From Petrimonas sp. IBARAKI (lineage in GTDB: Bacteria > Bacteroidota > Bacteroidia > Bacteroidales > Dysgonomonadaceae): a stretch of 64,000 nucleotides of DNA. The notes under the pieces are model-generated. The model did no database searches. It saw only the letters and a program-made list of their open reading frames with translations, and was not told the origin of the DNA. Positions 2,678-38,962 of the stretch are shown one piece after another. The position numbers and the translations under genes are program-made. The stretch spans positions 930,001-994,000 of the forward strand of contig AP018040.2 in the NCBI GenBank assembly GCA_002356435.2, read 5' to 3'. Each line of letters begins with the position of its first letter. Within the stretch, counting starts at the first letter, position 1.

Positions 2678-2686
2678 AGTTATCTT

Positions 2687-2723
2687 AAAAAAAGGAGTAA
2701 CTATTTTACAGCTACTCCTTTTT
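2687..2723. terminator. Rho-independent terminator hairpin, bidirectional
   Basis: An 11-bp perfect stem (AAAAAGGAGTA against TACTCCTTTTT) with a 13-base loop. Both arms end in A/T runs, so it can act on either strand. On the minus strand it directly follows the tRNA-Gly 3' fragment at 2718-2748, as the terminator of an intact tRNA gene would; this suggests the fragment sits next to the gene's original downstream flank. Confidence 0.75.
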
Positions 2724-2748
2724 AGAGCGGAAGACGGGATTCAAACCC
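2718..2748 (-). repeat. Left copy of a 31-bp att-like repeat: tRNA-Gly 3' end fragment
   Basis: These 31 bases are identical to 19475-19505, which covers the 3' end of the intact tRNA-Gly gene (acceptor strand and T-arm half) plus a short flank. The rest of a tRNA is not present at this position. A duplicated tRNA 3' end in the same orientation is the usual footprint of site-specific integration into a tRNA gene. The two copies enclose PUL1 and its regulator. Confidence 0.85.
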
Positions 2749-3012
2749 TTTTTTACCGCCTACGTTGAGTTGTTTATAGCCCTAATAGAAAGTCTATGCG
2801 TCTTTTGGCATGCAAAGGTACAACATTCTTTGAACCGACAATTTTTTAAGGATATTTTTTTACTTTCCTGCTAATAATAAAGGTGTTAATTTAGTTCTTG
2901 TTTTAATGTGTTGCTTCTAATATATAAGGATAAACAAATAACCCGATGAATAATGTCTTCAGGCTGGCCATTAAAGATACTGAGATGTTCTGTTTATTTA
3001 TTTATTTATTGT
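2749..3012. other. Intergenic region at the left edge of the PUL1 island
   Basis: AT-rich spacer between the tRNA-Gly fragment and the end of the downstream metallophosphatase gene. I see no coding sequence, no tRNA that could fold and no recombinase remnant. Confidence 0.5.
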
Positions 3013-4131
3013 TCAATTTATATAGAATATTTCTTTATCTGAGGGGTTGTTTCCGTAACCACGAAAGTAATTTAACTCTACTCTATTCCCATGTAAGGAA
3101 AATATTGCATATCCCGAGCTATTTTCGCTGTAATAACTTTTAATGTGGGGAACTTCATTTTTCAGTATCTTTAATCTCCTTTCCAGTGTATGAGGTTGCC
3201 AAGATTTGTCTATTGTCTGAGTACCCGGGAAAACGGTTGTGCCACTAACGACAGTAGCCTCTTTAAACCCTTGTATGACACTGTTAAACATAAATTGCCT
3301 GACTGTTCCCTTATTTGTCTTCCGTTCAATTTTTGAGTATTTATGAAGATGAGCACACAATACGGTAACCTGGTGTTCGGCCAATAATTCTAGAAACTCA
3401 GTGCGTAGATGCTCGTCTTTTAGCTCTCTTCTTATCTCGCTGAAAAGATGCCAACACCTTTCAGTGACTGGGATTACTGGCTGATGGGTAACCAGAAATT
3501 TGAATTTTGCTTTCGATTCAGGTAATTCCTGTTTGAGAAAGTTCAGAATTTCAGTTTCCGGTAAGTTCTGATCGGGACTGAAGAATTGTTCCAATATAAA
3601 AAAATGGACATCGTCCGAGAGTTGATACGTGTACATCCCATTTGTCAGCTCTTTACCCGTTTGCCTCTCAATAAAGGGTAAAACAACTTCTTTCCATGCC
3701 TCAGGCTGGCCTGGGCTGGTACTCACATCGTGGTTACCCTTGGCCAGTATCCAAGGTGTTCCCAGATCGGTATCATACAGATAATCAATACTAAAACGTG
3801 CCATATCTCTCGATAGTTTATCGTTACCGGCAACACCCTGCATCAGATCGCCCAACTGAACAACAGCTTTAACTGGGGGATTGAACGTTGCTACTTGCTG
3901 TTTTGCACGAGCAAACAAATGCGGTGTAAATGTGGCTGTAAAGAACGGGTACTCTTTGGATATCTGTGCAAAATCCTGCGGCCTAGTATTCACATAATCC
4001 ATATCGTGCAGTTCGAATTTATCCAAGTGAATATCTCCCATTACAAGAAAAGAGACGCCTTGTGCGCTTACTCTGTTGAAGTAAACACACAAGACAAGGA
4101 TAAATAAAATTTTCAGCTGTTTTTCTATCAT
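3013..4131 (-). CDS. Secreted calcineurin-like metallophosphatase (second of a tandem pair)
   Basis: Protein of 372 residues with an N-terminal signal peptide (hydrophobic run ending in VSAQG) and the metal-binding motifs of the calcineurin-like phosphoesterase fold in order: MGDIHLD, LGDLMQG, KGNHDVS, VTHQPVIP and CAHLHKY. These bind two metal ions and hydrolyse phosphate mono- or diesters. It follows a close paralogue after a 3-bp gap, so the two are a tandem duplication in one transcript at the distal end of the SusCD operon. Export and position suggest it removes phosphate from the glycan used by PUL1, but the substrate is inferred. The last gene before the island edge. Confidence 0.85.
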   Translation of the reverse strand: MIEKQLKILFILVLCVYFNRVSAQGVSFLVMGDIHLDKFELHDMDYVNTRPQDFAQISKEYPFFTATFTPHLFARAKQQVATFNPPVKAVVQLGDLMQGVAGNDKLSRDMARFSIDYLYDTDLGTPWILAKGNHDVSTSPGQPEAWKEVVLPFIERQTGKELTNGMYTYQLSDDVHFFILEQFFSPDQNLPETEILNFLKQELPESKAKFKFLVTHQPVIPVTERCWHLFSEIRRELKDEHLRTEFLELLAEHQVTVLCAHLHKYSKIERKTNKGTVRQFMFNSVIQGFKEATVVSGTTVFPGTQTIDKSWQPHTLERRLKILKNEVPHIKSYYSENSSGYAIFSLHGNRVELNYFRGYGNNPSDKEIFYIN

Positions 4132-4134
4132 CTC

Positions 4135-5241
4135 TTATTTGATCAGATCCGATATACAGATTCTTTCGTAGGGAGTTTTGTTTGTGGCAGAATAATATTC
4201 CAGAAAAACTTCCCCATTTTCAGAATTAGTCGATAGCAATCCGTATCCCGGCAATTCTTGTTGCTTGAAGAAAGAGACATGGCGGCTTTCTTCGTTTAGC
4301 CATTGTATCCTCTGAACGATAGTTGCCGGTTGCCACTCTGGACGGTCTGTTGCCAGATTCCAACCATACTTTGTGTATGCCTTGCCTGCAGAGGTGCGGT
4401 CAAGATCCCTTACCACGCTGTTAAACGAGAGCTGAACAATAGGTCCGAGAGGAGTTTCCCTTTTTACAACGGCATAGAGGTGGAGGTGTGCGGTGAGCAC
4501 AATAGCCTTGTTTCTGGCTATGATCTCAAGTAGCTTCTCCCTTTTCTCAGGTTCATTCCTGTATAAATGCCAGCAACGTTCATTGATGGGAATAATGGGT
4601 TCATGAACCAGTAAAAATTTAAATTTTGCATCCGAAGAGGAGAGATTCTTTTCCAAAACCTCCAGGAGATCTTCTCTTTTATCCCAAGGATCAAAGGCTA
4701 CGAACAAATTCTCACCTATCCGATGAGCGTAGTTTGCGGAAGTAATATCGTTTCTGTTCAACTGTTTCCGAAACATGGAAATATAGTGCTTGTCAAATGC
4801 TTCAACTGCTCCCGGTCCGGTAATGTCGTGATTGCCTTTGATGATAATCCAGGGAACGGGCATATTGACTGCTTCTACACCTTCTACTAACCCACGGGCC
4901 ATCTGGTCGGCTTTTTCAACACTGCCGGCAAGGCCTTCGGAAATATCCCCGAGTTGTACTACCGCTTTCACTTTTGAGTTACTGTTTACGGCTACCTGCC
5001 TGAGATGTTTACTGAAGACAGGCCATATCTCTTTCGTAATCCTTGTGTACTCTTTCACCTGCCTTACGTCATCGGGTTTGGTGTTTAACCACTTCATATC
5101 ATGATCTTGGATACGATCATAATGGATGTCGCCGAGCACGATGAAGCTTTGTTCCTGAGCCCGCATTGCGACACTCAGAAAAAATGCAAAAATCAGTATA
5201 TTGATAACTTTCAAATTCATATAATTAAAATATTTTTTCAT
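4135..5241 (-). CDS. Secreted calcineurin-like metallophosphatase (first of a tandem pair)
   Basis: Paralogue of the next gene, 368 residues, with a signal peptide ending near MRAQEQS. Metallophosphatase motifs are LGDIHYD, LGDISEG, KGNHDIT, LVHEPIIP and TAHLHLY, so all metal ligands seem intact. Compared with its partner the motif spacing is nearly the same, but the loop residues differ clearly, so the duplication is not recent and the two may differ in substrate. It follows the WbsX/GH99-like lipoprotein gene after 106 bp. Same strand as SusC and SusD, so probably part of the PUL1 transcript. Confidence 0.85.
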   Translation of the reverse strand: MKKYFNYMNLKVINILIFAFFLSVAMRAQEQSFIVLGDIHYDRIQDHDMKWLNTKPDDVRQVKEYTRITKEIWPVFSKHLRQVAVNSNSKVKAVVQLGDISEGLAGSVEKADQMARGLVEGVEAVNMPVPWIIIKGNHDITGPGAVEAFDKHYISMFRKQLNRNDITSANYAHRIGENLFVAFDPWDKREDLLEVLEKNLSSSDAKFKFLLVHEPIIPINERCWHLYRNEPEKREKLLEIIARNKAIVLTAHLHLYAVVKRETPLGPIVQLSFNSVVRDLDRTSAGKAYTKYGWNLATDRPEWQPATIVQRIQWLNEESRHVSFFKQQELPGYGLLSTNSENGEVFLEYYSATNKTPYERICISDLIK

Positions 5242-5347
5242 TAAAGTTCGATATTCGCTCGCTATGGCTTAGCTCAAGCAAGCTTGGCTTATTTAGCTTG
5301 ACGAAAACGCTCCTAAGCGTAACCGTTTAATCCTTGATTTATACCAT

Positions 5348-6412
5348 TTATTTCACGGTGAATTGATCTTTTAAAATCTCCAGGTACCTTGTTCCGTAAC
5401 CGGTGGCCGGTTCAATAGTATTACCCTTTTTGTAGTCATTCCATGAATTCACTATCACAAAACGTTGTTCCTTTCCCAGGTTTCTCTTGGCTACATTGCA
5501 ATAATCCACAAAAAACTTTTCGGTCCTTTCCATACCAAAATTTTTGGTCTTTGGAACAGAAATAGAATCGTTGTATGCAGGAAAAATACAAGGTACATAG
5601 TCTACATTCCAGGCAGAAGTCGAATCACACCAGTTTTTCCAACTGATGTCGTTAAACGACAGAAAGGCATAGCTCTTGTCGTAATCGGTTGGTGCCCAGT
5701 TGCTCAAGACAACAGCATCCATGGTGATAATATTATTTTTGTACGTCTGAGGGGCTCTCCAGCCTGTGGGTAATTCACCTATGAAATAGGGAACTACTCC
5801 CATCTTCCCGAACTCATCCCGCACAGTAGTCATTACCAAATCAAAATCAACTGCGTTTACTGCACCGGAAGAAGGTATTAAACTCGTGATCATGACAACC
5901 GGTTGATTTTCTACCTTGAAGTAATACTCTTTAGACATATGGGTTGTATAAAGATTTTTTAACTCTGAAATCATACCGTTCAACTTCCCTTCAGTCAGCG
6001 GGGACGTATTTGTTGCTTTCAGATGTGCAATAGAATAATTGATAACCATCTTGGGTGAGCCCGAAGTATGTGAAGATGCAAAGACAGACAACAATTCATC
6101 CTCTGTACTTTTCTTATCCCAATTGAAGATGAAGAAATCCAGACCACCTTTTGAAGCCCATTCAAATTGTTTGGCCAATAAATCCGGATTAGCCAATATA
6201 TCATATTTCCCAAGTTCCGGATTATCGATATAATCCTTACCCCAGTCTGCAGATGTATAACTGAAATAATAAGCTCCTACATTTACCTTTTCAGTTAGAT
6301 TAGTTTCAGGGATGGGATAGTAAAACTTGTTTGTATCGGGAAGATGCTCATCGGTTGAGCATGCCACAAAAATTCCTGCTGAAACTATAATTGCATAAAT
6401 TAATTTTCTCAT
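5348..6412 (-). CDS. WbsX/GH99-like glycosidase-type lipoprotein
   Basis: Lipoprotein of 354 residues (signal peptide, then FVACST). The mature part begins VGAYYFSYTSADWG and includes GGLDFFIFNWDKK and a C-terminal NSWNDYKKGNTIEPATGYG segment. This combination fits the WbsX / glycoside hydrolase 99-like group, (beta/alpha)8 proteins related to endo-alpha-mannosidases and endo-mannanases. Enzymes of this group in PULs are expected on the cell surface, where they cut internal bonds of alpha-mannan-like chains; for this protein that activity is inferred. It starts 12 bp after the SusD stop, clearly in the same operon. It could also be a binding protein if catalytic residues are not conserved, which I cannot settle by eye. 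Confidence 0.7.
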   Translation of the reverse strand: MRKLIYAIIVSAGIFVACSTDEHLPDTNKFYYPIPETNLTEKVNVGAYYFSYTSADWGKDYIDNPELGKYDILANPDLLAKQFEWASKGGLDFFIFNWDKKSTEDELLSVFASSHTSGSPKMVINYSIAHLKATNTSPLTEGKLNGMISELKNLYTTHMSKEYYFKVENQPVVMITSLIPSSGAVNAVDFDLVMTTVRDEFGKMGVVPYFIGELPTGWRAPQTYKNNIITMDAVVLSNWAPTDYDKSYAFLSFNDISWKNWCDSTSAWNVDYVPCIFPAYNDSISVPKTKNFGMERTEKFFVDYCNVAKRNLGKEQRFVIVNSWNDYKKGNTIEPATGYGTRYLEILKDQFTVK

Positions 6413-6424
6413 TGCATATACTTT

Positions 6425-8038
6425 TTATTCGTTCGGTAAATTTTTATTTTTCACGGGAGGTAAGCCCCAGGACAAAGTAGTAAACAAGTAATCACCTCCT
6501 TCTCCTAAAGTGGTAACAGCTTTCAAAACCTCCGTATTGTTTGCCTGATATTCATCACTGGGGTATGGTAAACGGGATGGCATATATAAAGTGGTTCCTT
6601 CATAAGATGCGAACATTGGCTGGAACTCCAAAACCTGGGTCCGTCTTAGCAATTCCCATGCATCTCCGCACTGCATCGGGATAGCTAACCAATGCTGCAT
6701 GACTATTTGTCTGAAGTAATCTCCTTCTTCAATAGCGCTTGTACAAATACGGGCAAAATCCTGAAATTCTTTTTCTCTTCCGGCAATATCGGAAGCGGTT
6801 CCCCATTTTACGCCGGGTGTATTCTTATACGTGCCGGCATAGCCAGAGAGATCATATTTTGCAAAAGAAGCGTCTATTCCCTCATAGTAGTATTGTTCGG
6901 CGCTTTTTGACGTCTTCCAGCCATACAGAGCTGCCTCAGATTTTAACAGGGCCACTTCTGCGTAAGAGATAAATACCCATTCGGCATCCGGTTGCAGGAA
7001 TCTTGATCCTATAGGTGAATAGTCCTTTTGAGTCAAACCCCTATGAGGATTCTCTTCAACAGGAAACCCATTTGGCTGCCCTCCATAAGAGATGTTCTGT
7101 CCGAAATATTCACCTTTGAAAGGCCCTTGGGTAGCAGGCTGTGCATAGACTGTCAGACGAGGATCATTATAAGGTTTGGTGTGATATACCATTGACTCGC
7201 ATAACACGGGAAGGGTAGCCAGATTGGCCTTTTCGTTATATACGACCCTGTCGTACAATGGACTCCATGTTGTACTGGTTGTTCCCCAGCGGGCGGTGGC
7301 TGATTCTGATTCCCTGTTTATGGTTGCATTTTCATCACTTAAAACAGCTTGTGCTTCCGCAGCTGCCTTGGCCGGATCAGCATTCTTTATGCGAAGGGCG
7401 AGACGTAATCTCAAAGAATTTGCGAATTTTTTCCATTTGTCAATATCTCCCTGATAAACAAAATCATATTCTTTTTGATATTTATCTCTTTTATTGTCAA
7501 GGTTTTCCGCACATTCTTTCAATTCCTGAAAAAGAAAATCATGAATGCCCTCTTCTGAATCATATGGAATATTAGGCTCTCCATTTAATGCTTTTGATAC
7601 CGGGATAGGACCATAAAAAGCTACTGTCTGGGAAATGATGTAAGCTTTCCATATTCGTGCTATAAGTACCCTGTTGTGATAAGCATTGTTATCTTTGAAA
7701 TTTTCAACTATCTTATTTACGGGTTGCATACAGTAAACATACGCACTCCTCCAATATGAATTATTCTCGCTGTCACTATAGTTGTAACGTTGCCAACTTC
7801 CCTGAAAACCAGAATATTGATGTGTATAGTTGAAGAAGATCACACGATTCATATGTCCACCGTACAGATTTAGCGATTCACTTATCGAGGTAGCAAAAAG
7901 AAAATCAGGCTCAACCTTTTCCGGGTTGTTCGGGTCGGTATTTATATCTCCGAAATCAGTAAATGCACATGAACTTAATCCTATTAATACGATCAGGATC
8001 AAGAATATTTTTTTATAAATTTTGTCACTATTGTTCAT
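6425..8038 (-). CDS. SusD/RagB-family outer-membrane lipoprotein (PUL1)
   Basis: Surface glycan-binding lipoprotein of 537 residues that works as the lid of the SusC transporter. It has a lipoprotein signal ending LSSCAFT, then the opening DFGDINTDPNNPEKV that marks the SusD-like_2 branch of the family. The helical TPR-like region with RIWKAYIISQTVAFYGPIPVSKAL and the C-terminal region with AEVALLKSEAALYGW are as in other SusD proteins. It starts 10 bp after the SusC stop codon. Substrate: by context an alpha-mannose-containing, perhaps phosphorylated, glycan. Confidence 0.92.
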   Translation of the reverse strand: MNNSDKIYKKIFLILIVLIGLSSCAFTDFGDINTDPNNPEKVEPDFLFATSISESLNLYGGHMNRVIFFNYTHQYSGFQGSWQRYNYSDSENNSYWRSAYVYCMQPVNKIVENFKDNNAYHNRVLIARIWKAYIISQTVAFYGPIPVSKALNGEPNIPYDSEEGIHDFLFQELKECAENLDNKRDKYQKEYDFVYQGDIDKWKKFANSLRLRLALRIKNADPAKAAAEAQAVLSDENATINRESESATARWGTTSTTWSPLYDRVVYNEKANLATLPVLCESMVYHTKPYNDPRLTVYAQPATQGPFKGEYFGQNISYGGQPNGFPVEENPHRGLTQKDYSPIGSRFLQPDAEWVFISYAEVALLKSEAALYGWKTSKSAEQYYYEGIDASFAKYDLSGYAGTYKNTPGVKWGTASDIAGREKEFQDFARICTSAIEEGDYFRQIVMQHWLAIPMQCGDAWELLRRTQVLEFQPMFASYEGTTLYMPSRLPYPSDEYQANNTEVLKAVTTLGEGGDYLFTTLSWGLPPVKNKNLPNE

Positions 8039-8048
8039 ATCCGTGTTT

Positions 8049-11000
8049 TTAGAAAGTTAATTTTATATCAAAGCCATAAACCGCAAATGGCGGAAGCGAT
8101 CCGTTTTCAATTCCCTGACCGTTTCCTGAAGTTTGTGAAGCTTCCGGATCAAAACCCTGGGGGGTATTTTTATGGATGGTCCACAAATTTCTACCGACCA
8201 ACGCAAGCCGCAGCCTTTGTATTTTCAACTTGTTCACAACCGATTTAGGGACGGTGTACCCCATAGCAAGTTCTCTCAGCTTGACGTAAGAGGCGTCAAA
8301 CATGGTGAATTCGGCATAATTTGGCCTTGTATATGCAAAATTCTGTGGACTCATGAATCTTTTCGCTGAGGTTCCGTCACTGTAAACGGCATCCCAATAG
8401 GCTCCCCCGGATAACTCAGAGTCGCTTTCTCCCCATATTACTTTTCGGATATAATAATCATCTCTGCCAAACAGAGTCTCCGCAATCATGCCATTCGTTA
8501 ACATTTTACTGTATGATGCAGAATACATGACGCCCCCTTTTTTCACATCTACCAGAAAGTTTAAATCAACATTTTTATATTTAAAAGTATTTGTTATACC
8601 GCCTATCCAGTCAGGAGTGGAGGTGCCGAAAGGTTTATCGGGGTCTTTCATCAATAATCCGCCTCCGTCTTCCATGATCATTTTACCGTTTACATCTCTT
8701 TTCACCCCCAACCCTCTCAGGTAACCATAGGGTTTGCCAACCTCAGCGTATACATAGATATAACTGGAGTAATTGCCGATTTGAAAACGATCGACTCCCT
8801 CAATCAGACTGTTTACCACAGAATTGTTCTTTGCCCAATTTACATTTACTTCCCAGGTAAAATTAGCCTTTTTAATAGGAGTCCCATACAACATCAGCTC
8901 AATGCCATCATTATGGATCTCTCCGGCATTGTAATACCTTCGTAGATATCCAGAGGAGGTTGGCAGCTGAGCATTAATAATTTGATTTTCAGTTCTCGTC
9001 TTATAGTAGGTGAAGTCCAATCCTAAACGATTATTGACAAACCTCAGGTCTGTACCTACTTCCCACGAATATGTTTTCTCAGGTTTTAAATCTCTGTTAT
9101 TCATTGTCCGTGACAGGGAGCCCAGTGTTGCACCGTTAAAGATGCCGTCGAAAGAATAAGTGTCCCAAACACGATAAGGTCCGGTGTCACTTCCTACGAT
9201 GGCATAAGATGCTCTGACCTTACCAAAAGAAAGAAACGACTTGTCGATGTTAAAAGCATCTGTAATGATAAAGCTAGATCCAACAGACGGATAAAAATAG
9301 GAGTTGTTTTGCGGAGGTAATGTGCTGGACCAGTCGTTACGTCCGGTAATATCTAAATATAGAAAATCATTGTAACCCAGGGATACTGCAGCCAGAACCG
9401 AGTTGATCTTTTTTCTGCTATAATCTTGTGTGTCTATGGGATATTCAGATGTGTTCGAAATGTTGATCAACCCGGCCTGAAGGATGGAGTTGATAGCCTG
9501 TGTATAAGACTTTTGGTTATTGCTGTACATCACTGCTCCGGCGTTCGCAAATAAGGATATCTTATTCCACCTTTTATTATACGTGAGGAGCGCTTGCAAA
9601 TCATAGTTCTCAAGTTCTCTCTGGAATGTACCCATATTACCGTCTTTTTGATTCATCCCGCCCTTGTTGACGAACGTGTAACCATTCCAATTGTATGTGT
9701 CTAAACCGGCCCTCAAACTCAAACTCAGCTCGTCTGTAAAGTCCATATTTAAATTAAAGGATGAGATTATCCTTTTTTTAGTATCTTCGTTCTTGTTCTC
9801 ATTGATGATCCAATAGGGATTACTGAAATTCCGGTGAGTGCCTGTTTCATATCCATTGGCATCTTTCCACTCGTACAATTCACTCAGGGATGTACTTCTT
9901 GCCATATGTACATAGGAGTTCATCGGATTCTTACTGTCGCTTTTAGAATATTGTCGGTTTGAGACCCTGTCATATATATAACTTATTTTTGAGTCTAATG
10001 ACATCCAATCAGTGAATTGATTATTTAATCGCAAATTAAAAGTAGACTTGTTTCCAATATTCACTTTTTCGACCACACTGGTTGAATAGTTATTCGTGTA
10101 TGATATTCTGTATCTGTTTTTTGCTCCTCCTCCTTCCACTGACAGTGAATTGGTCAAAGCCATGGCTGTCTGATAGAAATCTTTCACATTGTCAGGTTCT
10201 GGCAGATAGGCTTTCAGTTTGCCATCTAAGCCAATCACCGGCTGCCCGATCATGGGGCTTCCCCAGCTGCGATAGTTCTGGGCAGCCAAGGGAGGATTGT
10301 TTTTATTATCAATATAGGAGCTTGTTCCCACCCCGTATGCATTCTGATATTCGGGGAATTCAATCAAAGTCTGGAGCATCGTATTTGAATTAAAATCGAC
10401 GCTGAAGCCCTCTTTCCCAGTTTTTGTAGTGATAAGGACGACTCCGTTAGCAGCTCTGGAGCCATATAATGCTGAGGCATTTGCCCCTTTAAGAACCTCA
10501 ATACTCTCGATATTTTCAGGATTAATATCAGCTGCTCCGTTTCCGTAATCCAAATTTCCTCTTTCACTGCTCGTATTATCAATGGGCATTCCATCGACAA
10601 CAAAAAGCGGTTGATTATCCCCGGTAATGGAGTTATTCCCCCTAATGACAATTCGTGCCGATCCGTTATTCATCCCGGGTTGGGTTACCTGAACACCAGC
10701 AATTTTACCGGAAAGCGAAGAGATCAGATTTGAGCTCTTGGCATCATTCATGCTTTCCGTGTCTATTCCTTGGGTCGAATAACTCAAGGCCTTCGTAGAT
10801 CGTTTGATACCAAGTGCCGTGACAACAACTTCTTCGAGTAATTCGGCGTCTTCACTAAGACTGATATTCAATGGCGACCGGCCGTCCCAGGCAACCTCCT
10901 GTTCTGAAAAGCCTATGTAAGAAAAAACAATAGTAGCCCCTTCTGAAACAGATAATGAATAGTTTCCATTGATGTCGGTAACGGTGCCATTTGTAGTTGA

Positions 11001-11162
11001 TTTTTCTACAACGTTTACCCCTATAAGAGGTTGACCGTCGGCATCCTTTACACTTCCCCTTAGAGTTTTATTTTGTGCAATTACATTGTTTGAAAACAGA
11101 AGTAAAAGCACAATAAAACACACTGATAGTTGTTTTTTTATACAAATAAGATTCATTTTCAT
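8049..11162 (-). CDS. SusC/RagA-family TonB-dependent outer-membrane transporter (PUL1)
   Basis: TonB-dependent porin of 1037 residues that imports oligosaccharides across the outer membrane with its SusD partner. I start it at the ATG at 11162, which leads into a signal peptide (hydrophobic run ending NNVIAQN); the open frame extends upstream to 11264 but that part is not signal-like. Order: carboxypeptidase-regulatory-like domain (LRGSVKDADGQPLIGVNV), plug with the SusC hallmark PLFVVDGMPID and VLKGANASALYGSRAANGV, then the beta-barrel ending in a C-terminal phenylalanine. A 295-bp gap separates it from GH92, so it may have its own promoter. Confidence 0.95.
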   Translation of the reverse strand: MKMNLICIKKQLSVCFIVLLLLFSNNVIAQNKTLRGSVKDADGQPLIGVNVVEKSTTNGTVTDINGNYSLSVSEGATIVFSYIGFSEQEVAWDGRSPLNISLSEDAELLEEVVVTALGIKRSTKALSYSTQGIDTESMNDAKSSNLISSLSGKIAGVQVTQPGMNNGSARIVIRGNNSITGDNQPLFVVDGMPIDNTSSERGNLDYGNGAADINPENIESIEVLKGANASALYGSRAANGVVLITTKTGKEGFSVDFNSNTMLQTLIEFPEYQNAYGVGTSSYIDNKNNPPLAAQNYRSWGSPMIGQPVIGLDGKLKAYLPEPDNVKDFYQTAMALTNSLSVEGGGAKNRYRISYTNNYSTSVVEKVNIGNKSTFNLRLNNQFTDWMSLDSKISYIYDRVSNRQYSKSDSKNPMNSYVHMARSTSLSELYEWKDANGYETGTHRNFSNPYWIINENKNEDTKKRIISSFNLNMDFTDELSLSLRAGLDTYNWNGYTFVNKGGMNQKDGNMGTFQRELENYDLQALLTYNKRWNKISLFANAGAVMYSNNQKSYTQAINSILQAGLINISNTSEYPIDTQDYSRKKINSVLAAVSLGYNDFLYLDITGRNDWSSTLPPQNNSYFYPSVGSSFIITDAFNIDKSFLSFGKVRASYAIVGSDTGPYRVWDTYSFDGIFNGATLGSLSRTMNNRDLKPEKTYSWEVGTDLRFVNNRLGLDFTYYKTRTENQIINAQLPTSSGYLRRYYNAGEIHNDGIELMLYGTPIKKANFTWEVNVNWAKNNSVVNSLIEGVDRFQIGNYSSYIYVYAEVGKPYGYLRGLGVKRDVNGKMIMEDGGGLLMKDPDKPFGTSTPDWIGGITNTFKYKNVDLNFLVDVKKGGVMYSASYSKMLTNGMIAETLFGRDDYYIRKVIWGESDSELSGGAYWDAVYSDGTSAKRFMSPQNFAYTRPNYAEFTMFDASYVKLRELAMGYTVPKSVVNKLKIQRLRLALVGRNLWTIHKNTPQGFDPEASQTSGNGQGIENGSLPPFAVYGFDIKLTF

Positions 11163-11457
11163 GCGTTTTGTGAATTTAATAATACATTTTTTTAATTTTA
11201 TAAGAGTTATAATTGCTATCCATATTACTTTACAGAGATCCCGATCGGATGAATTTGGCTGCAAAAGACGAATATTTATGTTACAATTCTATTACTTTCC
11301 GGTTAAGATATTATTACGAAACGTAAGGCTGTCCACGTATGTCCTGTGTAATAATATCATCCTTTATTATCCATGATGTTCGTTTAAAACCATTGATATA
11401 GGGCAACTATCTAACATTATCTCGTTGATAAATAACACCTAGGTGCAATATTGTCAA
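11163..11457. other. Intergenic region upstream of SusC (PUL1)
   Basis: A 295-bp AT-rich spacer between the GH92 stop and the SusC start. It probably holds the SusC leader and promoter, but I did not find a convincing TTTG / TAnnTTTG pair on the minus strand. Confidence 0.4.
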
Positions 11458-13719
11458 TTATTTCAATACTCCTTCCGATGGCGGGGCATCTTCGGATGCT
11501 GTTCCCCACTTTTTGTTAGCTTTACTGTCCATCACGAGCTTAAGTATACCTCCCTCCTTGATATCATCGTGGCTAAACCAGGGCTTGTTCCACTCTTTAC
11601 CGTTGAGGCGTGCCGACTGGATATATTTGTTTTCCGGGCTGTTATTTTCGGCTATGATGCGGAAAATTTTCCCGTTATCCAGTTGTACGGTGATCTCTTT
11701 GAAGAAGGGACTGCCAATGTTGTAGGCAGGGCTACCGGGTGTGACGGGATAGAATCCCATCTGCGAGAAAACCACAAATGCCGACATGCCCCCTCCGTCT
11801 TCATCGCCGGGAATACCCATGAGATCGTTCCTGAACCATTCCGATACAAGCTTACGGATACGTTTTTGCGTTTTCCAGGGAGCTCCGGCATAGTTGTAGA
11901 GATAGGGAATGTGAAGGGAGGGTTCGTTGGCCATGGAAAATTGCCCCACGTTTCCTGTGTGATCGGGCAGCTGGCTATAGAACTCAAATTTGCTCTTTCC
12001 TAACGGTTCGCTGAACGTTTGATCCAGATAGCTCAGAAAGTTCTCCCGACCTCCCATAAGGTGAATTAGGTCGGCTACGTTATGGGGTACATCCCACCGG
12101 TATACCCATGCGTTGTTCTCTCCGTAGTATTCCCTGGCTCCCATCCCGCCGGAAAACTTATAATCGAACGGTTCAATAAAATTCCCTTCTTTATCCCTGG
12201 GGTGGAAAAAGTTTGTTTCAGGATTGAAGAGATGGCGATAATTATAGGATTTTTGCAGGAAATGCTTGTAATCGTCTGTTTTGCCTAATTCTTTGGCTAT
12301 CTGTGCCAGGCACCACTCATCGTAAGCAGTGCCCAACGTAACAGCTACGGGCTGACGTTTTTCCCATGAATGGACTTCGGGAATGGTTTCCTGTTCCCCA
12401 TCCCTGAGAGCGGGGATGTACCCATGCTCCTGATAGAACTGGTCCAGTTCGCCCGCCGGCTTTGCTGACCAGGGGGCCAGTGTCTTTTTTACCAGGGCAT
12501 TACGCATGGCTGGGTATTTTCTTTCCAGATCGAGTCCGACCAAGCCTTTCCGGTAAGCATCGAGCACCGTGGCAATGCCGTGATTGGAATTCATACGGCG
12601 ACTGTCTCCCGTTATCTCAGGGAAGGTAGGCCACCAGAATTCCGGCATCTGTTCCGACATCCTTAAAAAAGAGTGGAGAATGTTGACCTCCATTGCGGGT
12701 TCAGTCAGTACCCGGAGGGGGTGTGTGGCACGATAGGTATCCCATATCCAATCGTCCGTATAGAAAGGTGTCCCATTGTCATTGTGAACCATGCCGTCAA
12801 AAGCGCTGAAATAGCGTCCCCCTTCAGAGATACAGACAGGTCTTTCATAGGTGCGGTAGAGAGAGGTATAGAAAACCTTTCTGTCCTCATCCTTCCCTCC
12901 CTTCACGATGATCTTTCCCAACTTTTCGTTCCAGAGCTTACGCCCTTTTTCAGCGGTACGATCTACATCAAAGTCGCTGATCTCTCTTTGCAGATTCTGT
13001 TTTGCCTGCTCTTCATCGATAAACGAAATGCCGTAGCGAAGATTCAGCTGTTCCGTTTCATTTGAGAAATGGAAGACCAGATTGGCATTTCGTCCCGAAG
13101 CCTCGTGTTTGTCCAACTGACGGCCATCCTGAAGAGAACTTACCCTCTGTGGTTCTGTCTCAGTTTCCAGATAGAGGTAGACCTTGGTATTGTTGGCCAG
13201 CTGCTGGTAGCCCGACACGGCGGTGCCATCCCATCTCAGTGCGCCGTTACGGGAGTTTAACACCAGAAAAGTGTTCTCTTTTCCACTGAACCCTAAGGAG
13301 TAAACAGCCGACTGATGCGAAAGGGCAAATCTCACATCTATACCGTAGTCGTCGAGGTATACCGAGTAACTGTATGGGGTGATTTTTTCGTTGTCGTAAC
13401 TGTATTGTACGACAGGCTGCAGACCTTCCATATCTCCGCGATAAGGACTTAAATTGAAAGCAGAGCTGCCGCGGTGGCTGGTTACAACAATAGGGAGGCC
13501 AGACAAAACATCTTCGGTATAATCATTCCGTTCAGGATATACACGGAGCATGCTGTTGGGTAGATGAACAGTAGGATAGGCAGGCACCAGAAGATGGCTG
13601 ATATTACCCATATAGGGATTAACGTAGTCTACAGGGTCGCTCACGGTTACACTTAACTGTTGATTACATCCTGTAAGAAAAAAGAGGATTCCCAAAAATA
13701 AACTGATTGATTGTCTCAT
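11458..13719 (-). CDS. GH92 family alpha-mannosidase lipoprotein (PUL1)
   Basis: Exo-acting, calcium-dependent alpha-mannosidase of 753 residues. Start chosen at 13719, which gives a lipoprotein signal peptide ending LFFLTGCNQ; 13 extra in-frame residues upstream are not signal-like. The mature protein begins with the GH92 opening VDYVNPYMG and carries the family blocks GENNAWVYRWDVPHN (with the candidate catalytic acid Glu), MANEPSLHIPYLYNYAG, and GDEDGGGMSAFVVFSQMGFYP. GH92 enzymes remove mannose from alpha-1,2-, 1,3- and 1,4-linked mannosides; linkage specificity is not readable here. It lies 96 bp downstream of the GH71/99-like gene. Confidence 0.93.
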   Translation of the reverse strand: MRQSISLFLGILFFLTGCNQQLSVTVSDPVDYVNPYMGNISHLLVPAYPTVHLPNSMLRVYPERNDYTEDVLSGLPIVVTSHRGSSAFNLSPYRGDMEGLQPVVQYSYDNEKITPYSYSVYLDDYGIDVRFALSHQSAVYSLGFSGKENTFLVLNSRNGALRWDGTAVSGYQQLANNTKVYLYLETETEPQRVSSLQDGRQLDKHEASGRNANLVFHFSNETEQLNLRYGISFIDEEQAKQNLQREISDFDVDRTAEKGRKLWNEKLGKIIVKGGKDEDRKVFYTSLYRTYERPVCISEGGRYFSAFDGMVHNDNGTPFYTDDWIWDTYRATHPLRVLTEPAMEVNILHSFLRMSEQMPEFWWPTFPEITGDSRRMNSNHGIATVLDAYRKGLVGLDLERKYPAMRNALVKKTLAPWSAKPAGELDQFYQEHGYIPALRDGEQETIPEVHSWEKRQPVAVTLGTAYDEWCLAQIAKELGKTDDYKHFLQKSYNYRHLFNPETNFFHPRDKEGNFIEPFDYKFSGGMGAREYYGENNAWVYRWDVPHNVADLIHLMGGRENFLSYLDQTFSEPLGKSKFEFYSQLPDHTGNVGQFSMANEPSLHIPYLYNYAGAPWKTQKRIRKLVSEWFRNDLMGIPGDEDGGGMSAFVVFSQMGFYPVTPGSPAYNIGSPFFKEITVQLDNGKIFRIIAENNSPENKYIQSARLNGKEWNKPWFSHDDIKEGGILKLVMDSKANKKWGTASEDAPPSEGVLK

Positions 13720-13815
13720 ACAATGATTTAATAGTTTTGCAGCATAAATTGAATACAAATGAGGTCCTTCGTAATTTGTAATCTCCCCTTTGATTTTGAT
13801 ATGCCGTTTTGTTTT

Positions 13816-15144
13816 TTAATTATTATTTGACGTGGACCTCTCAGGTTTCACCTCTGTATAACTCTCCTTCCCTTTAATCCACCGTGCTGCCTGTCCCGAA
13901 AGCCATAGATAATAATCAGATTCTAAATCATCTTCTATTCCTACGAATTTACGGTTTCCGTTTAATGGCACCTCGCTTTCTCTCAGACACTTGAATAATG
14001 CAGTCCCTTCATCGATCTCGTCAAACATGGCAAGGTATAACGACTGTGCTCCAGATAGTTTAGCTCCAGCAACTTGTTTCCAGAAAAACTCTCCTTTCTC
14101 CCGGGGAATTGAGTTGTACTGGGCGGGATCGTTTTTTAAATTTCCCCAGCTGAATCCGGGAAAAACAAGCGGAACATAATCGATACTATGCTCTTTACAC
14201 CATCTTATATCTCCGGTAAGTACCGCATCGCTTTTCTCCCGATAGGTGTCGGAGTTATAACGACCTACAGCCCATGGCATTATAATGTCGGCTTCTTTAA
14301 TCAAGGTATGTAAAAAAGGATTATTTTCAGTATCGTTGTCCAACGTTCGCCAGTAATAGGGCACGCCAAGCATCAAAGAAAATTTATTTCTGTCTTGATT
14401 TAATGTTTCAATCAGTTGTTGAACATCAGAGAGCGAGTACTTCCGTCCATCATTGAACCCAACTCCCCAAATTGCAATCAATGGTCTCTTATGATGTCTT
14501 AGATAAGTGGGGTTACTTCTGCTATTAAATAAATTAAACTTTGCTTGGAGCTCTGCTAAATCATTCGCGATTACAGTAAGATCGCTTGATGCACAGCCGC
14601 TTAAATCATACATGATGCAGATGGCCCTTTCGTATTTGGCTGCTGCTTTCAAGGCGCTCTCCAACACTTTGTTGAAATGATTCTTTCCTGCCGGATTTTT
14701 TATCTCAACTATAAACCGTTGCATAAAGGCTCCATCAATTCCATACTCTTTCATCCACTTAAAATGCAGATCAACGCTCTCTTCATCGTATGGGCTATAA
14801 ACATATGCTGGCGTTCCATCCGAGTGTTTGAATTCTGTCTTATATACCCGGCTATAGTCATTTATATCAGGCCAAAAATCAACGGATGTGCTTTCGGGTT
14901 TAAAACGTCCTCCCTTCTGATAGTGACGCCAGCCTCTGTCTGCACCGTCCCCTTCGGCCGTAAACCAACCTTGATAACCGGTCATCACTAATCCATTATA
15001 AGAGGTGTAAATGGCTTCAATATCATCATAAGCATTTTTTTGTTTTTCCGGGCTGTTTGACTTATCTTCTTTTATCCTGAAAAATAAAATAAAGGCTGAT
15101 ATAAGTGCGAATAAAATAATGATTGGTTTCACTGTTTTTCTCAT
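13816..15144 (-). CDS. Glycoside hydrolase family 71/99-like protein
   Basis: Protein of 442 residues with an N-terminal hydrophobic segment (IIILFALISAFILFF) that acts as signal anchor or uncleaved signal; there is no lipobox cysteine. The body carries NGLVMTGYQGWFTAEGDG, GIDGAFMQRFI, RPLIAIWGVGFNDG, a YVPLVFPGFSWGNL strand, and a late AMFDEIDEGTALFK segment, which together fit the GH71/99-like group of Bacteroidota. Related GH99 enzymes are endo-alpha-mannosidases or mannanases. By position it should cut the same glycan that GH92 trims. It starts 6 bp after the alkaline phosphatase stop, so the two are co-transcribed. Confidence 0.75.
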   Translation of the reverse strand: MRKTVKPIIILFALISAFILFFRIKEDKSNSPEKQKNAYDDIEAIYTSYNGLVMTGYQGWFTAEGDGADRGWRHYQKGGRFKPESTSVDFWPDINDYSRVYKTEFKHSDGTPAYVYSPYDEESVDLHFKWMKEYGIDGAFMQRFIVEIKNPAGKNHFNKVLESALKAAAKYERAICIMYDLSGCASSDLTVIANDLAELQAKFNLFNSRSNPTYLRHHKRPLIAIWGVGFNDGRKYSLSDVQQLIETLNQDRNKFSLMLGVPYYWRTLDNDTENNPFLHTLIKEADIIMPWAVGRYNSDTYREKSDAVLTGDIRWCKEHSIDYVPLVFPGFSWGNLKNDPAQYNSIPREKGEFFWKQVAGAKLSGAQSLYLAMFDEIDEGTALFKCLRESEVPLNGNRKFVGIEDDLESDYYLWLSGQAARWIKGKESYTEVKPERSTSNNN

Positions 15145-15150
15145 TATATT

Positions 15151-16248
15151 TTATTTATTTCCCAAATTCAAAGAAAAAATAAATCGTCCCTTGAAATCAG
15201 TATTATTAAAAAATCCTGAGAAAACCTCACTCCCGGGGCCATAGGAATATACAGGCAGCATTACGCCTGTATGACCTTTAGTAGAAAAGTTTACCTTTAC
15301 CTCCCCTGTTTCATAATTCCCCTTTAACACGGTAACACCGCCCGTTTCATGATCTCCCGTAACAACGACTAACGTTTCACCATTCTCGCGTGCAAAGTCA
15401 AGAGCGACACCAATCGCTTTGTCAAAATCGAGCATTTCTGCTAAGAACTGTTCCTGGTTATTATTATGACACGCCGGATCAATCTGTGATCCTTCTACCA
15501 TCAGGAAAAAACCTTTGTCGTTATCTTTATCCAAACTCTGAAGTGCTTTCTCTACTGCTACTGGGAGAAAATCTCCTCTCCCATTGATTTTGAAGGGCAT
15601 GTGGGAGTTGGCAGTTAAGGCTAAAACTTTATCCTTGGAACTATCTATTTGCAAAACATCTTCAAAAAAATCATACCCTTCTTTTTTCATCTTTTCTACA
15701 AGGTTAAGCTTATCTGCTCTATCGGTAAAATGTTTCAATCCTCCACCAATAATAATATCAACTCCCGAAGTTGAAATATCCGAAGCTATTTCTTCATACA
15801 TATTACGATCGGGTTGGTGAGCTATAAAGGCTGCCGGCGTAGCATGAGTAATCGTATTTGTAGCTATAAGTCCTGTTTTAAAGCCTTGATTAATTAAAAT
15901 TTCCACAATAGATTCTGTAAAGTTACCCTCCGGATTTATTCCTATGACACCATTCTTGGCTTTTTCTCCGGAAGCTAAGGCTGTTGCAGAAGCGGCTGAG
16001 TCTGTAATATAATTATCGGATGATTCGGTTTTCTGTAAACCTATTACCGGAAATTGCTGAAGATTCAGTTTTTTCTGAGATACCGTCATTGCAGCATGGA
16101 CATGACTTAACCCCATTCCATCACCAATCATAAAGATTACATTTTTAGGAGAGGTTCTAATTCCTTCTTCTGTGTTTTGACAAAAAAAGGAGAGAGAAAA
16201 GCTCAAAAAAAACAAAAGAAAACCAGATCTATAGAAAAATGCGTTCAT
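15151..16248 (-). CDS. Secreted alkaline phosphatase
   Basis: Alkaline phosphatase superfamily enzyme of 365 residues with a signal peptide (run ending LSFFCQNT). Visible active-site parts are MIGDGMGLSHV (first metal aspartate), the nucleophile block TDSAASATALASGEKAKNG with the catalytic serine, VEGSQIDPACH, and VTGDHETGGV, all in the expected order. It would release inorganic phosphate from phosphomonoesters in the periplasm using zinc and magnesium. It is the promoter-proximal gene of the minus-strand half of PUL1, 380 bp from the divergent SARP-like regulator. A typical PHO-type role is possible, but the context points to a glycan-linked phosphate. Confidence 0.9.
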   Translation of the reverse strand: MNAFFYRSGFLLFFLSFSLSFFCQNTEEGIRTSPKNVIFMIGDGMGLSHVHAAMTVSQKKLNLQQFPVIGLQKTESSDNYITDSAASATALASGEKAKNGVIGINPEGNFTESIVEILINQGFKTGLIATNTITHATPAAFIAHQPDRNMYEEIASDISTSGVDIIIGGGLKHFTDRADKLNLVEKMKKEGYDFFEDVLQIDSSKDKVLALTANSHMPFKINGRGDFLPVAVEKALQSLDKDNDKGFFLMVEGSQIDPACHNNNQEQFLAEMLDFDKAIGVALDFARENGETLVVVTGDHETGGVTVLKGNYETGEVKVNFSTKGHTGVMLPVYSYGPGSEVFSGFFNNTDFKGRFIFSLNLGNK

Positions 16249-16628
16249 TGTGAAATTGAATATTGATTAGAATTAATAATGAGTCTAAAAATTTTAAAAC
16301 GAAATATCAGTAGCGTGAAAATTTCCAAATGACATTGCAATAATAGGAAGAGCAGGGTTATTTTAACCTTAAAAACACCTTAAAAAGCAAAGTTTCGGTC
16401 AAATATTTAATTATATTTGTGTTATTTTGTTTAATTTAACATTTTGGTTATTGACAAAAGAACAATCACGATTCTGTATTTTTGACCTGTTTGTGTATGA
16501 AGATAGGCATCATTTAAGAGACTATACGGTGTTATAGCCATCTCAAAAATTAGTTTTAATCAAAAAAAATTGTACCTTTATTTCTCGAATTTTACAAGAA
16601 ATTGTAATGCTCATTATTGCTTTGTACA
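16249..16628. other. Divergent regulatory region between alkaline phosphatase and regulator
   Basis: This 380-bp AT-rich spacer lies between two divergently transcribed genes and must contain both promoters; a self-regulating membrane regulator would bind here. A candidate plus-strand promoter is listed separately. I see no coding sequence. Confidence 0.5.
16451..16484 (+). promoter_or_regulatory. Candidate promoter of the SARP-like regulator gene
   Basis: TTGAC at 16451 and TATTTTTG at 16477-16484 fit the Bacteroidota TTTG / TAnnTTTG pattern. The spacing of 23 bases is slightly longer than usual. It would give a leader of about 140 bases before the ATG at 16629. A second TAnnTTTG match lies at 16412-16419. 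Confidence 0.3.
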
Positions 16629-19136
16629 ATGAGGTTTTTTTATCTGACAATATTTACATTGTTATCTTTAAGTACGTTTTCTGAAGGTGTAAACTATGGG
16701 ATTTTTATTAGATCATACCCGGCAAGCAATTCTTCCTGGTCTGAATTGGAGATTGAATATGGTAAGGCATTTCGTCTCAGAAAACATTTTTCACTGGAGT
16801 TTGAGATATACATAAGGGATGATTGTCCATTTGGCTATGTCTTTAGGTCTATCGGAGATGACAATAATAATATCGATCTGTTCTTTACAGTAGGAGAAGA
16901 AGACAAAAGATTTCCAGCAATCAGGGTCCTAGACTCAATTTATATTCTAACCCATGAACTGGAAAGAAATGCCTGGCTTCCTGTGAAAATGGTAATAAAT
17001 AAACCGGAACAGAATGTAATTCTGAAGTTCGGAGCAGAGACTAGGACTATCAATTATAAATCTAAAGCGAAAGAATTAAAATTTGTTTTCGGAAGATCAA
17101 CGGACAGTGGTATTGAAACAAAGGATATTGCTTCTGTTAATTTAAGGAATATTAAGGTCGAAAGTAACCACAGGCTGATTCGTCACTGGCCTTTGAAGAA
17201 ATATAACAATAATATAAGTTATGACGAACTTAAAAACGTTCCGGCTGTTTCAAAAAATGCTCAATGGCTTATCGAAGACCACTTGACTTTGAAGCTGATC
17301 TTAAAAAAGGAATTTGACCTGGCACCCTCAGTCGCATTTAATTCCCAAACGGGAGAATTTTACATTGTCAATGATTCCGAAAAAATCTTAATTTTTAACG
17401 CGACAGACTACTCTACAGATACGCTAAGAGTGAGTGGAGGCAATTTTGTAGCTCATTCACCCAATCAGTTAATGTATCTCGAAAATACCGGGGCGCTGCT
17501 CTCTTACAGAATTGAAGATAATGTTTTTTCTTTTTTTAATTTTAAAACCAATTCATGGAGCGACAATTCACATAGCTTTGAATATACTCATGAACATAAA
17601 TATTGGAATAATTCAACAACATTTCATGAACGCGATTCCGTTATCTACTCGTTCGGAGGTTATGGGTATTATCAGTTTAACAACGACCTGATAAGGTTGA
17701 CCCCGTTTAAGGGAGAAAGAAAAAACGACAGTAACATTACCCTGAAAGATGTTCCTCCGCGCTCAGCGGCAGCTACTGTTATCACTGGGGATACGTTGTA
17801 TATCTTCGGAGGCAGGGGGTCAATGAGCGGACATCAGGAAATCTCCCCTCAGAATTTTTACGACTTCTATGTTGTCAATTTAAAAAAATTCGAAATAGAC
17901 AAGAAATATGAATTCAGTAATATAGTTGGAGGTAACTTCTTGCCAAGTGAGAATATGATTTACGACAAAGAACAAGACTGCTTTTATACTTTTGTGAATC
18001 AGAATGGAGGCAAGATCATTCGCGTAGTACCCGACAAGAACTTGCTTAAAGATGTATCCCTATTACTGGATATAGATTTCACAACCCAGTATCAATACAC
18101 AAATTTGTACTATTCTGCTGAATTAAAAAAGTTTTTTGTGTTGATTAACAGAATAAACGTTGACGACACTTCCCAGATATCTATTTACAGCATTAACTCA
18201 CCTCTAATACCTGTTGAATCAATTTTAGCCTATTCACCCGCAAAAAGATCATCACTACTACCGCTAATAATCATCGTTTCATCTATAGCTCTGGGGTTGT
18301 TGGTCATTATTGCCCACAGATTAAGAATAAGAAGAAGACTCCAGCCGGTGGATATGATAACAGAAGAGATGGATCTAAAGGATGAAATACCTTCCGTCTG
18401 CTCTCCTAAAAACTGTTACTTCCTGGGCCCTTTTCAGGTAATCGATAAAAACGGAAACGATATCTCAACAGATTTTACGCCGACCTTAAGAAAATTGTTT
18501 GTCGTACTAATTTTGTATACTTATAATAATAAAGGTATCTCAGGAAAGGAAATGGTCAGCCTGATATGGCCGGATAAAGATATTGATTCTGCGAAAAACA
18601 GTAGAAACGTTTATATAAGCAAACTAAGAACGCTGATAGATAAGATTGGAGGTGCGCAAATAATCAACAAAAATAGAATATGGGCTCTCGAGATGGATGA
18701 TGATATAAAAGCAGATTACATAGAGGCTATACGAATGTTCAATAAAATAAATAGGGAACAATTGACCAATGAGGAGATAGCCGAACTGATCGGGATATTA
18801 TCCCGAGGCTCCCTTCTCCCGGGTTTTGAGTCCGATTGGCTGGATAACTACAAAAACGATTTCTCCAACCGAACTATTGATACCCTGTATACTCTGCTGG
18901 ATAATACCTCGATCGGTGATTCAATAAAGCTGAAAATATGTGACATCCTTTTTAAACATGACTTCCTGAATGAAAAGGCTCTTATTATCAAGTGTGAAAT
19001 CCTTAACAATCATGGGAAAAAGGGTATAGCCAAAAATGTATATGATATGTTTTGCGCCGATTATGAGAATTCATATGGTATTGAATACAATAAATCGCTT
19101 ACTGAAATACTTAAAACGGAAATCAACTTGAGGTAG
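16629..19136 (+). CDS. Membrane-spanning SARP-like transcriptional regulator with periplasmic kelch-like sensor
   Basis: Protein of 835 residues in three parts. A signal peptide (MRFFYLTIFTLLSLSTFSEG) leads into about 520 residues that are probably periplasmic: an N-terminal lectin-like beta region, then strands with kelch-type patterns such as VIYSFGGYGYYQFNNDLIRL and TLYIFGGRGSMSG. A single membrane helix follows at about residues 541-562 (LLPLIIIVSSIALGLLVII). The cytoplasmic end has an OmpR/SARP-type winged helix (about 595-690, with GKEMVSLIWPDKD and SRNVYISKLRTLID) and a BTAD-like helical tail. No kinase or receiver is present, so it would signal directly across the membrane. Divergent from PUL1, it is the likely PUL1 regulator. 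Start: the ATG at 16629 rather than the in-frame TTG at 16617. Confidence 0.8.
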   Translation: MRFFYLTIFTLLSLSTFSEGVNYGIFIRSYPASNSSWSELEIEYGKAFRLRKHFSLEFEIYIRDDCPFGYVFRSIGDDNNNIDLFFTVGEEDKRFPAIRVLDSIYILTHELERNAWLPVKMVINKPEQNVILKFGAETRTINYKSKAKELKFVFGRSTDSGIETKDIASVNLRNIKVESNHRLIRHWPLKKYNNNISYDELKNVPAVSKNAQWLIEDHLTLKLILKKEFDLAPSVAFNSQTGEFYIVNDSEKILIFNATDYSTDTLRVSGGNFVAHSPNQLMYLENTGALLSYRIEDNVFSFFNFKTNSWSDNSHSFEYTHEHKYWNNSTTFHERDSVIYSFGGYGYYQFNNDLIRLTPFKGERKNDSNITLKDVPPRSAAATVITGDTLYIFGGRGSMSGHQEISPQNFYDFYVVNLKKFEIDKKYEFSNIVGGNFLPSENMIYDKEQDCFYTFVNQNGGKIIRVVPDKNLLKDVSLLLDIDFTTQYQYTNLYYSAELKKFFVLINRINVDDTSQISIYSINSPLIPVESILAYSPAKRSSLLPLIIIVSSIALGLLVIIAHRLRIRRRLQPVDMITEEMDLKDEIPSVCSPKNCYFLGPFQVIDKNGNDISTDFTPTLRKLFVVLILYTYNNKGISGKEMVSLIWPDKDIDSAKNSRNVYISKLRTLIDKIGGAQIINKNRIWALEMDDDIKADYIEAIRMFNKINREQLTNEEIAELIGILSRGSLLPGFESDWLDNYKNDFSNRTIDTLYTLLDNTSIGDSIKLKICDILFKHDFLNEKALIIKCEILNNHGKKGIAKNVYDMFCADYENSYGIEYNKSLTEILKTEINLR

Positions 19137-19482
19137 GTTTTGAGATGTTATGGCACTATGTTGATAACGGTTAGATTTGAAAAACCCAAGACTTGATTTT
19201 ATACGCATCAAGATGGCTTTTACCCTTGTCAAAAGATTTGGAAGAAATTGTTCTGTTCGGTAAGTAATCAATTGTATAATGTATTTATTGGGGACTTTCC
19301 TAAGACTTAATTGCTACACAGTTTTGGAGAAGGTAAAGGCGGTGGGGTATTTGCATATTCCTTATTTGATCTTCATGATTTATTTCAAGGAAAAACGTCC
19401 TGAAATGTTAATTCCAGGACGTTTAAATATTCATAAAAGCATTTTTGGAATGCTTTTTGAAACCCAGATGGGCTCTTTTTAG
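19137..19482. other. Intergenic region at the right edge of the PUL1 island
   Basis: About 350 bp between the regulator gene and tRNA-Gly. It holds the terminator at 19391-19424 and most of the flank part of the right att-like repeat. An open frame at 19279-19482 reads through the terminator and matches nothing I know, so I do not call it a gene. Confidence 0.5.
19391..19424 (-). terminator. Rho-independent terminator downstream of tRNA-Gly
   Basis: A 10-bp perfect stem (AAACGTCCTG with CAGGACGTTT) with a 12-base loop. On the minus strand it ends in a T run, which suits termination of the tRNA-Tyr/tRNA-Gly transcript 59 bp upstream. If the island reading is right, this terminator belongs to the island and replaced the original one now near 2.7 kb. 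Confidence 0.7.
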
Positions 19483-19505
19483 AGCGGAAGACGGGATTCA
19501 AACCC
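19475..19505 (-). repeat. Right copy of the 31-bp att-like repeat, inside tRNA-Gly
   Basis: Identical to 2718-2748. It overlaps the last 23 bases of the intact tRNA-Gly gene and 8 bases downstream of it. With the left copy it brackets 16.7 kb. Confidence 0.85.
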
Positions 19506-19555
19506 GCGACCCTCAGCTTGGAAGGCTAATGCTCTATCGACTGAGCTACTTCCGC
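19483..19555 (-). tRNA. tRNA-Gly (anticodon TCC)
   Basis: Read on the minus strand, a 7-bp acceptor stem GCGGAAG/CTTCCGC, a D arm with GCTCAG...GAGC, an anticodon loop CTTCCAA giving anticodon TCC (glycine), and a T arm GCGGGTTTGAATCCCGT. Discriminator is T, usual for glycine. CCA is not encoded. It lies 69 bp downstream of tRNA-Tyr and serves as the integration target for the PUL1 island. Confidence 0.95.
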
Positions 19556-38868: not shown

Positions 38869-38962
38869 AAAATTGACCTCTCGCTGTCCCAATTTGTACA
38901 GCCTGTATATATCTCACAATTAACAGAGTAAACGTATTTTTGTAACATTGAAAAGTGAGATT

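Follow-up and report, generated by a model that had tools for sequence, protein, structure and literature searches.

How a complete polysaccharide utilization locus (PUL) came to lie between two copies of a tRNA gene end is the question raised by a 64,000-nt window of the genome of the anaerobe Petrimonas sp. IBARAKI (AP018040.2, 930,001-994,000; the genome, labelled G000 here, is a single contig of 3,693,233 bases). An earlier note, made from the letters alone, had reported 31-bp copies of a tRNA-Gly 3′ end on either side of the PUL and had read them as the mark of site-specific integration into a tRNA gene. Sequence comparison within the window finds the two 31-mers identical and in the same orientation at 2718-2748 and 19475-19505. 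We favour, with some reserve, the reading that the stretch 2718-19505 is a recently acquired, integrase-less island resembling a cis-mobilizable element (CIME), whose whole cargo is one PUL with its regulator and which was moved by an integrase encoded elsewhere. That its entry was site-specific at tRNA-Gly(TCC), a view that this reading shares with a decayed-element alternative weighed below, we consider likely.

The 25-base core of the repeat, allowing up to three mismatches, occurs at only two positions of the window and in none of 100 shuffles. Across the 3.69-Mb genome, a 20-base core allowing up to two mismatches has two extra matches, one within a tRNA-Gly and one within a tRNA-His gene; since the remaining near matches are all tRNA genes, a dispersed repeat is rejected. 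Most of the right copy falls inside an intact tRNA-Gly(TCC) gene, called by ARAGORN, that adjoins tRNA-Tyr (coordinates of all features are given in Table 1). No tRNA is called by ARAGORN at the left copy, which is the 3′ end alone and on the tRNA strand runs into a strong hairpin (2680-2748, minus strand, fold z -5.3), as the earlier note had described. This hairpin is most likely the original terminator of the tRNA, because it stands directly behind tRNA-Gly in the empty site of a same-species genome, although a simple consensus scan of 2600-3020 reports neither a terminator-like nor a sigma-70-like site, which counts against that assignment. When the exact tRNA-Gly 3′-end pattern with any following base but G was sought, the left copy was the only match in 393 order genomes and was joined in 101 family genomes by a single match in G005, which we rejected as a second displaced fragment since it is an intact variant tRNA. 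The adjacent 264 bp of the island (2749-3012) are non-coding and AT-rich (30% GC), have no second copy in this genome apart from the tRNA part, and by eye hold a motif, directed at the left presumed attachment (att) copy, which we take to be of the Bacteroidota promoter type. GC content is 40.2% in the island and 43.7% and 44.0% in its flanks.

The PUL-free relatives for which the earlier note had proposed a search exist. In genome G009, of the same species, the MATE gene, the same hairpin, a single 31-mer, tRNA-Gly and tRNA-Tyr follow one another without a break and without the PUL. When the flanks of the window are joined (1000 + 31 + 1000 bases), the resulting 2031 bp show 3 mismatches to G009, each of them on the left side of the 31-mer. 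Among the ten genus genomes searched, G000 included, the site is clean and empty in five of the nine others (G009, G001, G002, G003 and G007) and occupied in none. One more, G006, is PUL-free with a truncated tRNA-Gly(TCC) at the site (L106 9707-9772), whose 5′ end is missing together with the spacer to tRNA-Tyr and which goes undetected by ARAGORN. The other three are uninformative: the G004 contig stops within the tRNA, and G005 and G008 have no tRNA-Gly within about 1.5 kb of the MATE gene, that of G005 lying on a separate contig with no PUL in the 1.5 kb shown.

Between the two copies stand nine intact, closely packed open reading frames (ORFs), eight of them PUL genes and the last a divergent regulator-like gene, so that the description of the enclosed 16.7 kb as one PUL with its regulator holds. 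Pfam and NCBIfam scans identify the SusC/SusD pair and the glycoside hydrolases that define a PUL, and the combination of GH92 and GH99-like enzymes with three phosphatases suggests, from sequence, an alpha-mannan or phosphomannan-type substrate. The regulator-like protein has 839 residues with a kelch stretch and, by eye and without a profile match, a single membrane helix and, at the C-terminus, a DNA-binding-like domain; used as a query against genome contigs, it found no relative. The earlier note had also seen no recombinase inside, and our scans agree. Pfam and NCBIfam profiles detect no integrase or relaxase among the nine proteins and no primase in the 16.7 kb, and Pfam matches none of nine additional small, overlapping ORFs. 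Nor does tblastn find an integrase remnant in the island. It was run with 17 query frames, namely the integrase of G057 introduced below and 16 open frames taken from the 14 integrase loci of G000, among which two are extra frames; the best match has an E value of 0.006 over 21 residues. A hidden integrase on the island is rejected on these scans.

These features would be accounted for by a circle that bore the tRNA-Gly 3′ end next to a terminator arm of its own and recombined at the matching end of tRNA-Gly(TCC). In this exchange the tRNA would be rebuilt from the island's copy and receive the island's terminator, and its former 3′ end and terminator would come to lie 16.76 kb away. A tyrosine recombinase acting here would most likely be supplied by some other element using tRNA-Gly 3′ ends, whether that element sat in the donor or in this cell. 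As to the integration claimed by the earlier note, the exact repeat and the exact empty site support it; the recombinase, the circle and the supply in trans are what we infer.

The island's terminator arm, about 90 bp on the tRNA side, recurs at other tRNA-Gly genes. It is about 80% identical to the DNA directly behind tRNA-Gly(GCC) in G004 and G080 and to that behind a tRNA-Gly(CCC) fragment in G057. At E ≤ 0.001 the 101 family genomes yield matches in G000, these three and, weakly over 56 bp, G002 alone, in a search that scored at most seven candidates per genome and so may miss further copies; a profile of the four arms run against 250 sequences returned no further copy but the weak one of G002. 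The consensus fold of the four sequences has three hairpins, the last terminator-like, with both partners substituted in 3 of 29 pairs. The arm of G004 opens a 6.7-kb stretch, absent from G000, that lies directly between tRNA-Gly(GCC) and its terminator and carries an AraC regulator and a TonB-receptor-like protein, while that of G080 opens 3.8 kb with an acetylxylan-esterase-like and NagB-like pair, between tRNA-Gly(GCC) and tRNA-Leu genes that are adjacent in G000. No recombinase was detected in the five ORFs scanned of the G004 stretch or the two of the G080 stretch, and the far ends of the two stretches are alike (score 51 against a shuffle maximum of 37). The two stretches may be old relatives of the island; alternatively, the arm may be a terminator travelling with tRNA-Gly genes. 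That it is the native terminator of tRNA-Gly(GCC) is disfavoured, because the two G000 tRNA-Gly(GCC) loci lack it and few of the 101 genomes have it. A wider proposal, which we regard as doubtful, is that G000, G004 and G080 hold members of a family of integrase-less islands that share this structured terminator arm, sit at tRNA-Gly 3′ ends of different anticodons and carry only metabolic cargo; such islands would be moved by integrases of unrelated integrative and mobilizable elements (IMEs) or phages using those tRNA ends, and would escape surveys that require an integrase. Separately, three tandem truncated tRNA-Gly(GCC) units, each a 5′ half followed by a hairpin ending GGCAAGG, precede the intact gene in G000 and in G080, a genome of another genus (L243 1150-1576, genome 446982-447408; L239 9847-10232), with a spacing of 117 bp in G000 and about 103 bp in G080.

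That tRNA-Gly 3′ ends are integrase targets is seen at two other loci. An IME in G057 is bounded by an intact tRNA-Gly(CCC) and, 15.8 kb from it, by an exact 46-bp copy that the arm follows; this IME encodes an HTH_17 protein, two primase-type proteins, MobC/NikA, a relaxase and a tyrosine integrase that adjoins the displaced tRNA fragment (just below the Pfam cut-off; phrog_1 match 9.9e-22). The window holds no match within four substitutions to arm-type repeats of the kind found close to the ends of this IME, and no relatives of its integrase were found in viral contigs. The prophage-like IMG/VR contig IMGVR_UViG_2808606708_000003 holds a 47-bp tRNA-Gly(TCC) fragment with one mismatch, adjoining phage-type repressor, RecT-like and exonuclease VIII-like genes, with no tRNA gene in the 11.9 kb read. 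G000 itself gives 14 tyrosine-recombinase matches, none tied by evidence to tRNA-Gly(TCC); the one near a second tRNA-Gly cluster is presumably a Xer protein, judging by gene order. Five of the G000 frames, each of 289 residues (at 1481090, 1497600, 1503739, 1629970 and 1646273), have four equal scores and one close to them and are probably a multicopy element.

With the island DNA as query, 85 of the 101 family genomes match at E ≤ 0.001. The long matches among those listed are mostly GH92 and mpp2 pieces at about 65-75%, and only G002, of the same genus, covers most of the enzyme block and the regulator (82-90%, falling to 77% at the end of mpp1). This nearest PUL sits away from tRNA-Gly, whose site in G002 is empty, and is split over two contigs, each ending inside mpp2 in IS-like (insertion sequence-like) sequence with 7 shared bases. 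Across the inferred junction its order would be regulator, mpp3, mpp1 remnant, mpp2, GH92, GH99-like, alkaline phosphatase and distant WbsX, SusD and SusC relatives (26, 31 and 39% to the island proteins, respectively). Compared with the window, the regulator is thus at the other end of the PUL, as would follow from a circular intermediate cut elsewhere, an argument to which we give moderate weight. The donor of the PUL was probably congeneric, because five PUL genes (82.5-89.7%) and four core genes (81.5-86.3%) differ from their G002 counterparts to a similar degree. A plasmid origin was rejected, there being no near match among 72,556 plasmid records, where the GH99-like protein reaches at most 43.9% identity; in a distant search of the island's right end and tRNA against plasmids and phages, mainly the tRNA part aligns among the matches listed. 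The G002 PUL itself seems to be decaying, with mpp2 apparently cut by an IS-like element (L102 1-90 and L103 1-194, with similar ends and the 7 shared bases) and only the two ends of mpp1 left.

Several results weigh against an integrase-less island moved in trans. In neither the G004 nor the G080 insertion was a second tRNA fragment found at the far end (shuffle fractions 0.33 and 0.29), so that the arm is no more than a possible element end, and the island's own far end is weakly like that of G004 (score 26, reached by 5% of shuffles) and not like that of G080 (score 20, 59% of shuffles). The G002 gene order depends on joining two contigs through an IS, and weak regulator relatives (22-29%) occur on either side of the PUL in 49 loci (46 of a set of 79, that of G002 among them, and three more), which weakens the argument for a circle. 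A recombinase acting on tRNA-Gly(TCC) was identified neither in G000 nor in the 11.9 kb read of the 49-kb viral contig.

The same observations can be set against other histories. The island could be what is left of an IME, an integrative and conjugative element (ICE) or a prophage that, once integrated, lost the genes for its integrase and transfer through deletion and kept only the PUL cargo; loss from a larger element is given as the usual origin of CIMEs in the accessible text of PMC5704250, and the place where the G057 IME has its integrase, beside the displaced tRNA fragment, is taken in the island by the 264 bp of AT-rich non-coding DNA. We hold this to be possible though on the unlikely side, as the 16.7 kb revealed no integrase, relaxase or primase, the nine ORFs are intact and closely packed, and two genomes of one species that differ by the island would leave little time for so clean a loss. 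Improbable, in our estimate, is homologous recombination, in which incoming DNA with a PUL beside a tRNA-Gly end and terminator was exchanged through the shared tRNA 3′ sequence. The right arm does resemble a tRNA-Gly terminator carried along, and the similar divergence of PUL and core genes from G002 makes a congeneric donor plausible, but the shared stretch is only 31 bp with sharp ends on both sides, which is short for RecA, and a single clean insertion would still need a circle.

Very improbable is an old island precisely lost from G009 and other congeners rather than gained in G000: precise excision would give the same empty site, and G002 keeps a related PUL elsewhere, yet five clean empty genomes would require precise loss along several lines, and such excision would itself imply mobility. 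An assembly artefact is hardly credible. The accessible text of PMC5940944 describes the genome as built from metagenome data of a culture, but also as a PacBio assembly; it is a single contig, the nine ORFs are intact, and the closest homologous PUL is found in the same genus. Recent acquisition of an integrase-less island moved in trans is the history that we continue to favour.

Table 1. Features of the island and its junctions in window coordinates.
Feature	Position	Strand	Evidence
Terminator-like hairpin behind displaced fragment, most likely the original terminator of tRNA-Gly(TCC)	2678..2717	-	fold z -5.3; G009 empty site; unflagged by simple terminator scan
Left presumed att copy, displaced 31-bp tRNA-Gly(TCC) 3′ end	2718..2748	-	exact repeat; pattern search, 101 family + 393 order genomes
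Left island end, non-coding	2749..3012	.	30% GC; sigma-70-like scan negative
Calcineurin-like phosphoesterase mpp1	3013..4131	-	PF00149 2.2e-11
Calcineurin-like phosphoesterase mpp2	4135..5241	-	PF00149 3.3e-09
WbsX-like protein, lipoprotein by eye	5348..6412	-	PF14307 2.4e-08
SusD-like protein	6425..8038	-	PF12741 1.5e-66
SusC/RagA TonB-linked outer membrane protein	8049..11264	-	TIGR04056 3.1e-213
GH92 family glycoside hydrolase	11458..13758	-	PF07971 2.3e-157; TIGR01180
GH71/99-like glycoside hydrolase	13816..15144	-	43.9% identity to protein annotated 'glycoside hydrolase family 71/99-like'; no Pfam match above cut-off, no NCBIfam match
Alkaline phosphatase	15151..16248	-	PF00245 3.6e-75
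Divergent regulator-like membrane protein	16617..19136	+	kelch profiles below cut-offs; no NCBIfam match; sequence by eye
Right tRNA-proximal arm, three hairpins, last terminator-like	19391..19474	-	~80% identity to G004, G080, G057 DNA; consensus fold
Right presumed att copy, overlaps tRNA-Gly(TCC) 3′ end	19475..19505	-	exact repeat
Intact tRNA-Gly(TCC)	19482..19555	-	ARAGORN

Elsewhere in the window, a second tRNA-anchored island lies within 38604-64000. Collinearity with G009 ends at the last base of tRNA-Ser(TGA) (38689), behind which lies a tyrosine integrase with an arm-binding domain (38948-40090). What follows this tRNA-Ser in G009 is different DNA, which would fit a hotspot at this position. 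The tRNA-Ser 3′ end was not found again in the remaining window or in the 80 kb beyond it.

PULs are a main route to new diets in Bacteroidota, and the best-known mobile PULs ride larger conjugative elements. An island this clean, made of a whole PUL between two repeats, matched by an exact empty site within the species and with no integrase found, amounts to a minimal unit. Its movement is directly testable, and integrase-filtered surveys can miss units of its kind.

Among known systems, the structure of the island fits the published definition of a CIME, as given in the accessible text of PMC5704250: it has presumed att copies at both ends, one of them in a tRNA 3′ end, and no integration or transfer genes found between them. 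It differs in that its cargo is one whole PUL, in having no neighbouring ICE or IME at the site and in showing no sign of a decayed backbone; the scans found no integrase remnant, which fits descent from an ICE or IME as well as its absence. ICEs and IMEs proper encode their own integrase, which the scans did not find on the island. The Bacteroidota IMEs NBU1 and MTnPi4 at tRNA-Leu and NBU2 at tRNA-Ser, as the same accessible text lists them, and the G057 IME share with the island a tRNA 3′ end as target and leave the tRNA intact, but they encode an integrase and are mobilizable, whereas neither integrase nor relaxase was found here. Tycheposons, in the accessible part of PMC10872708, are likewise tRNA-anchored, of 4-200 kb, with nutrient-related cargo, and carry a tyrosine recombinase; the island has the tRNA gene at its border (ARAGORN) and no such recombinase was found in it. 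Horizontal movement of PULs is the likeness to the 47 SusC/SusD loci on mobile genetic elements of gut Bacteroidetes reported in PMC6907783, whose islands, as far as its accessible text goes, need an integrase or transposase or a relation to a prophage or ICE, so that the present island would be dropped. Literature searches, at the level of titles and the first lines of abstracts in an open-licence collection, yielded no integrase-less whole-PUL tRNA island. The kind of island is already known, and the one described here is an unusually clean whole-PUL case of it.

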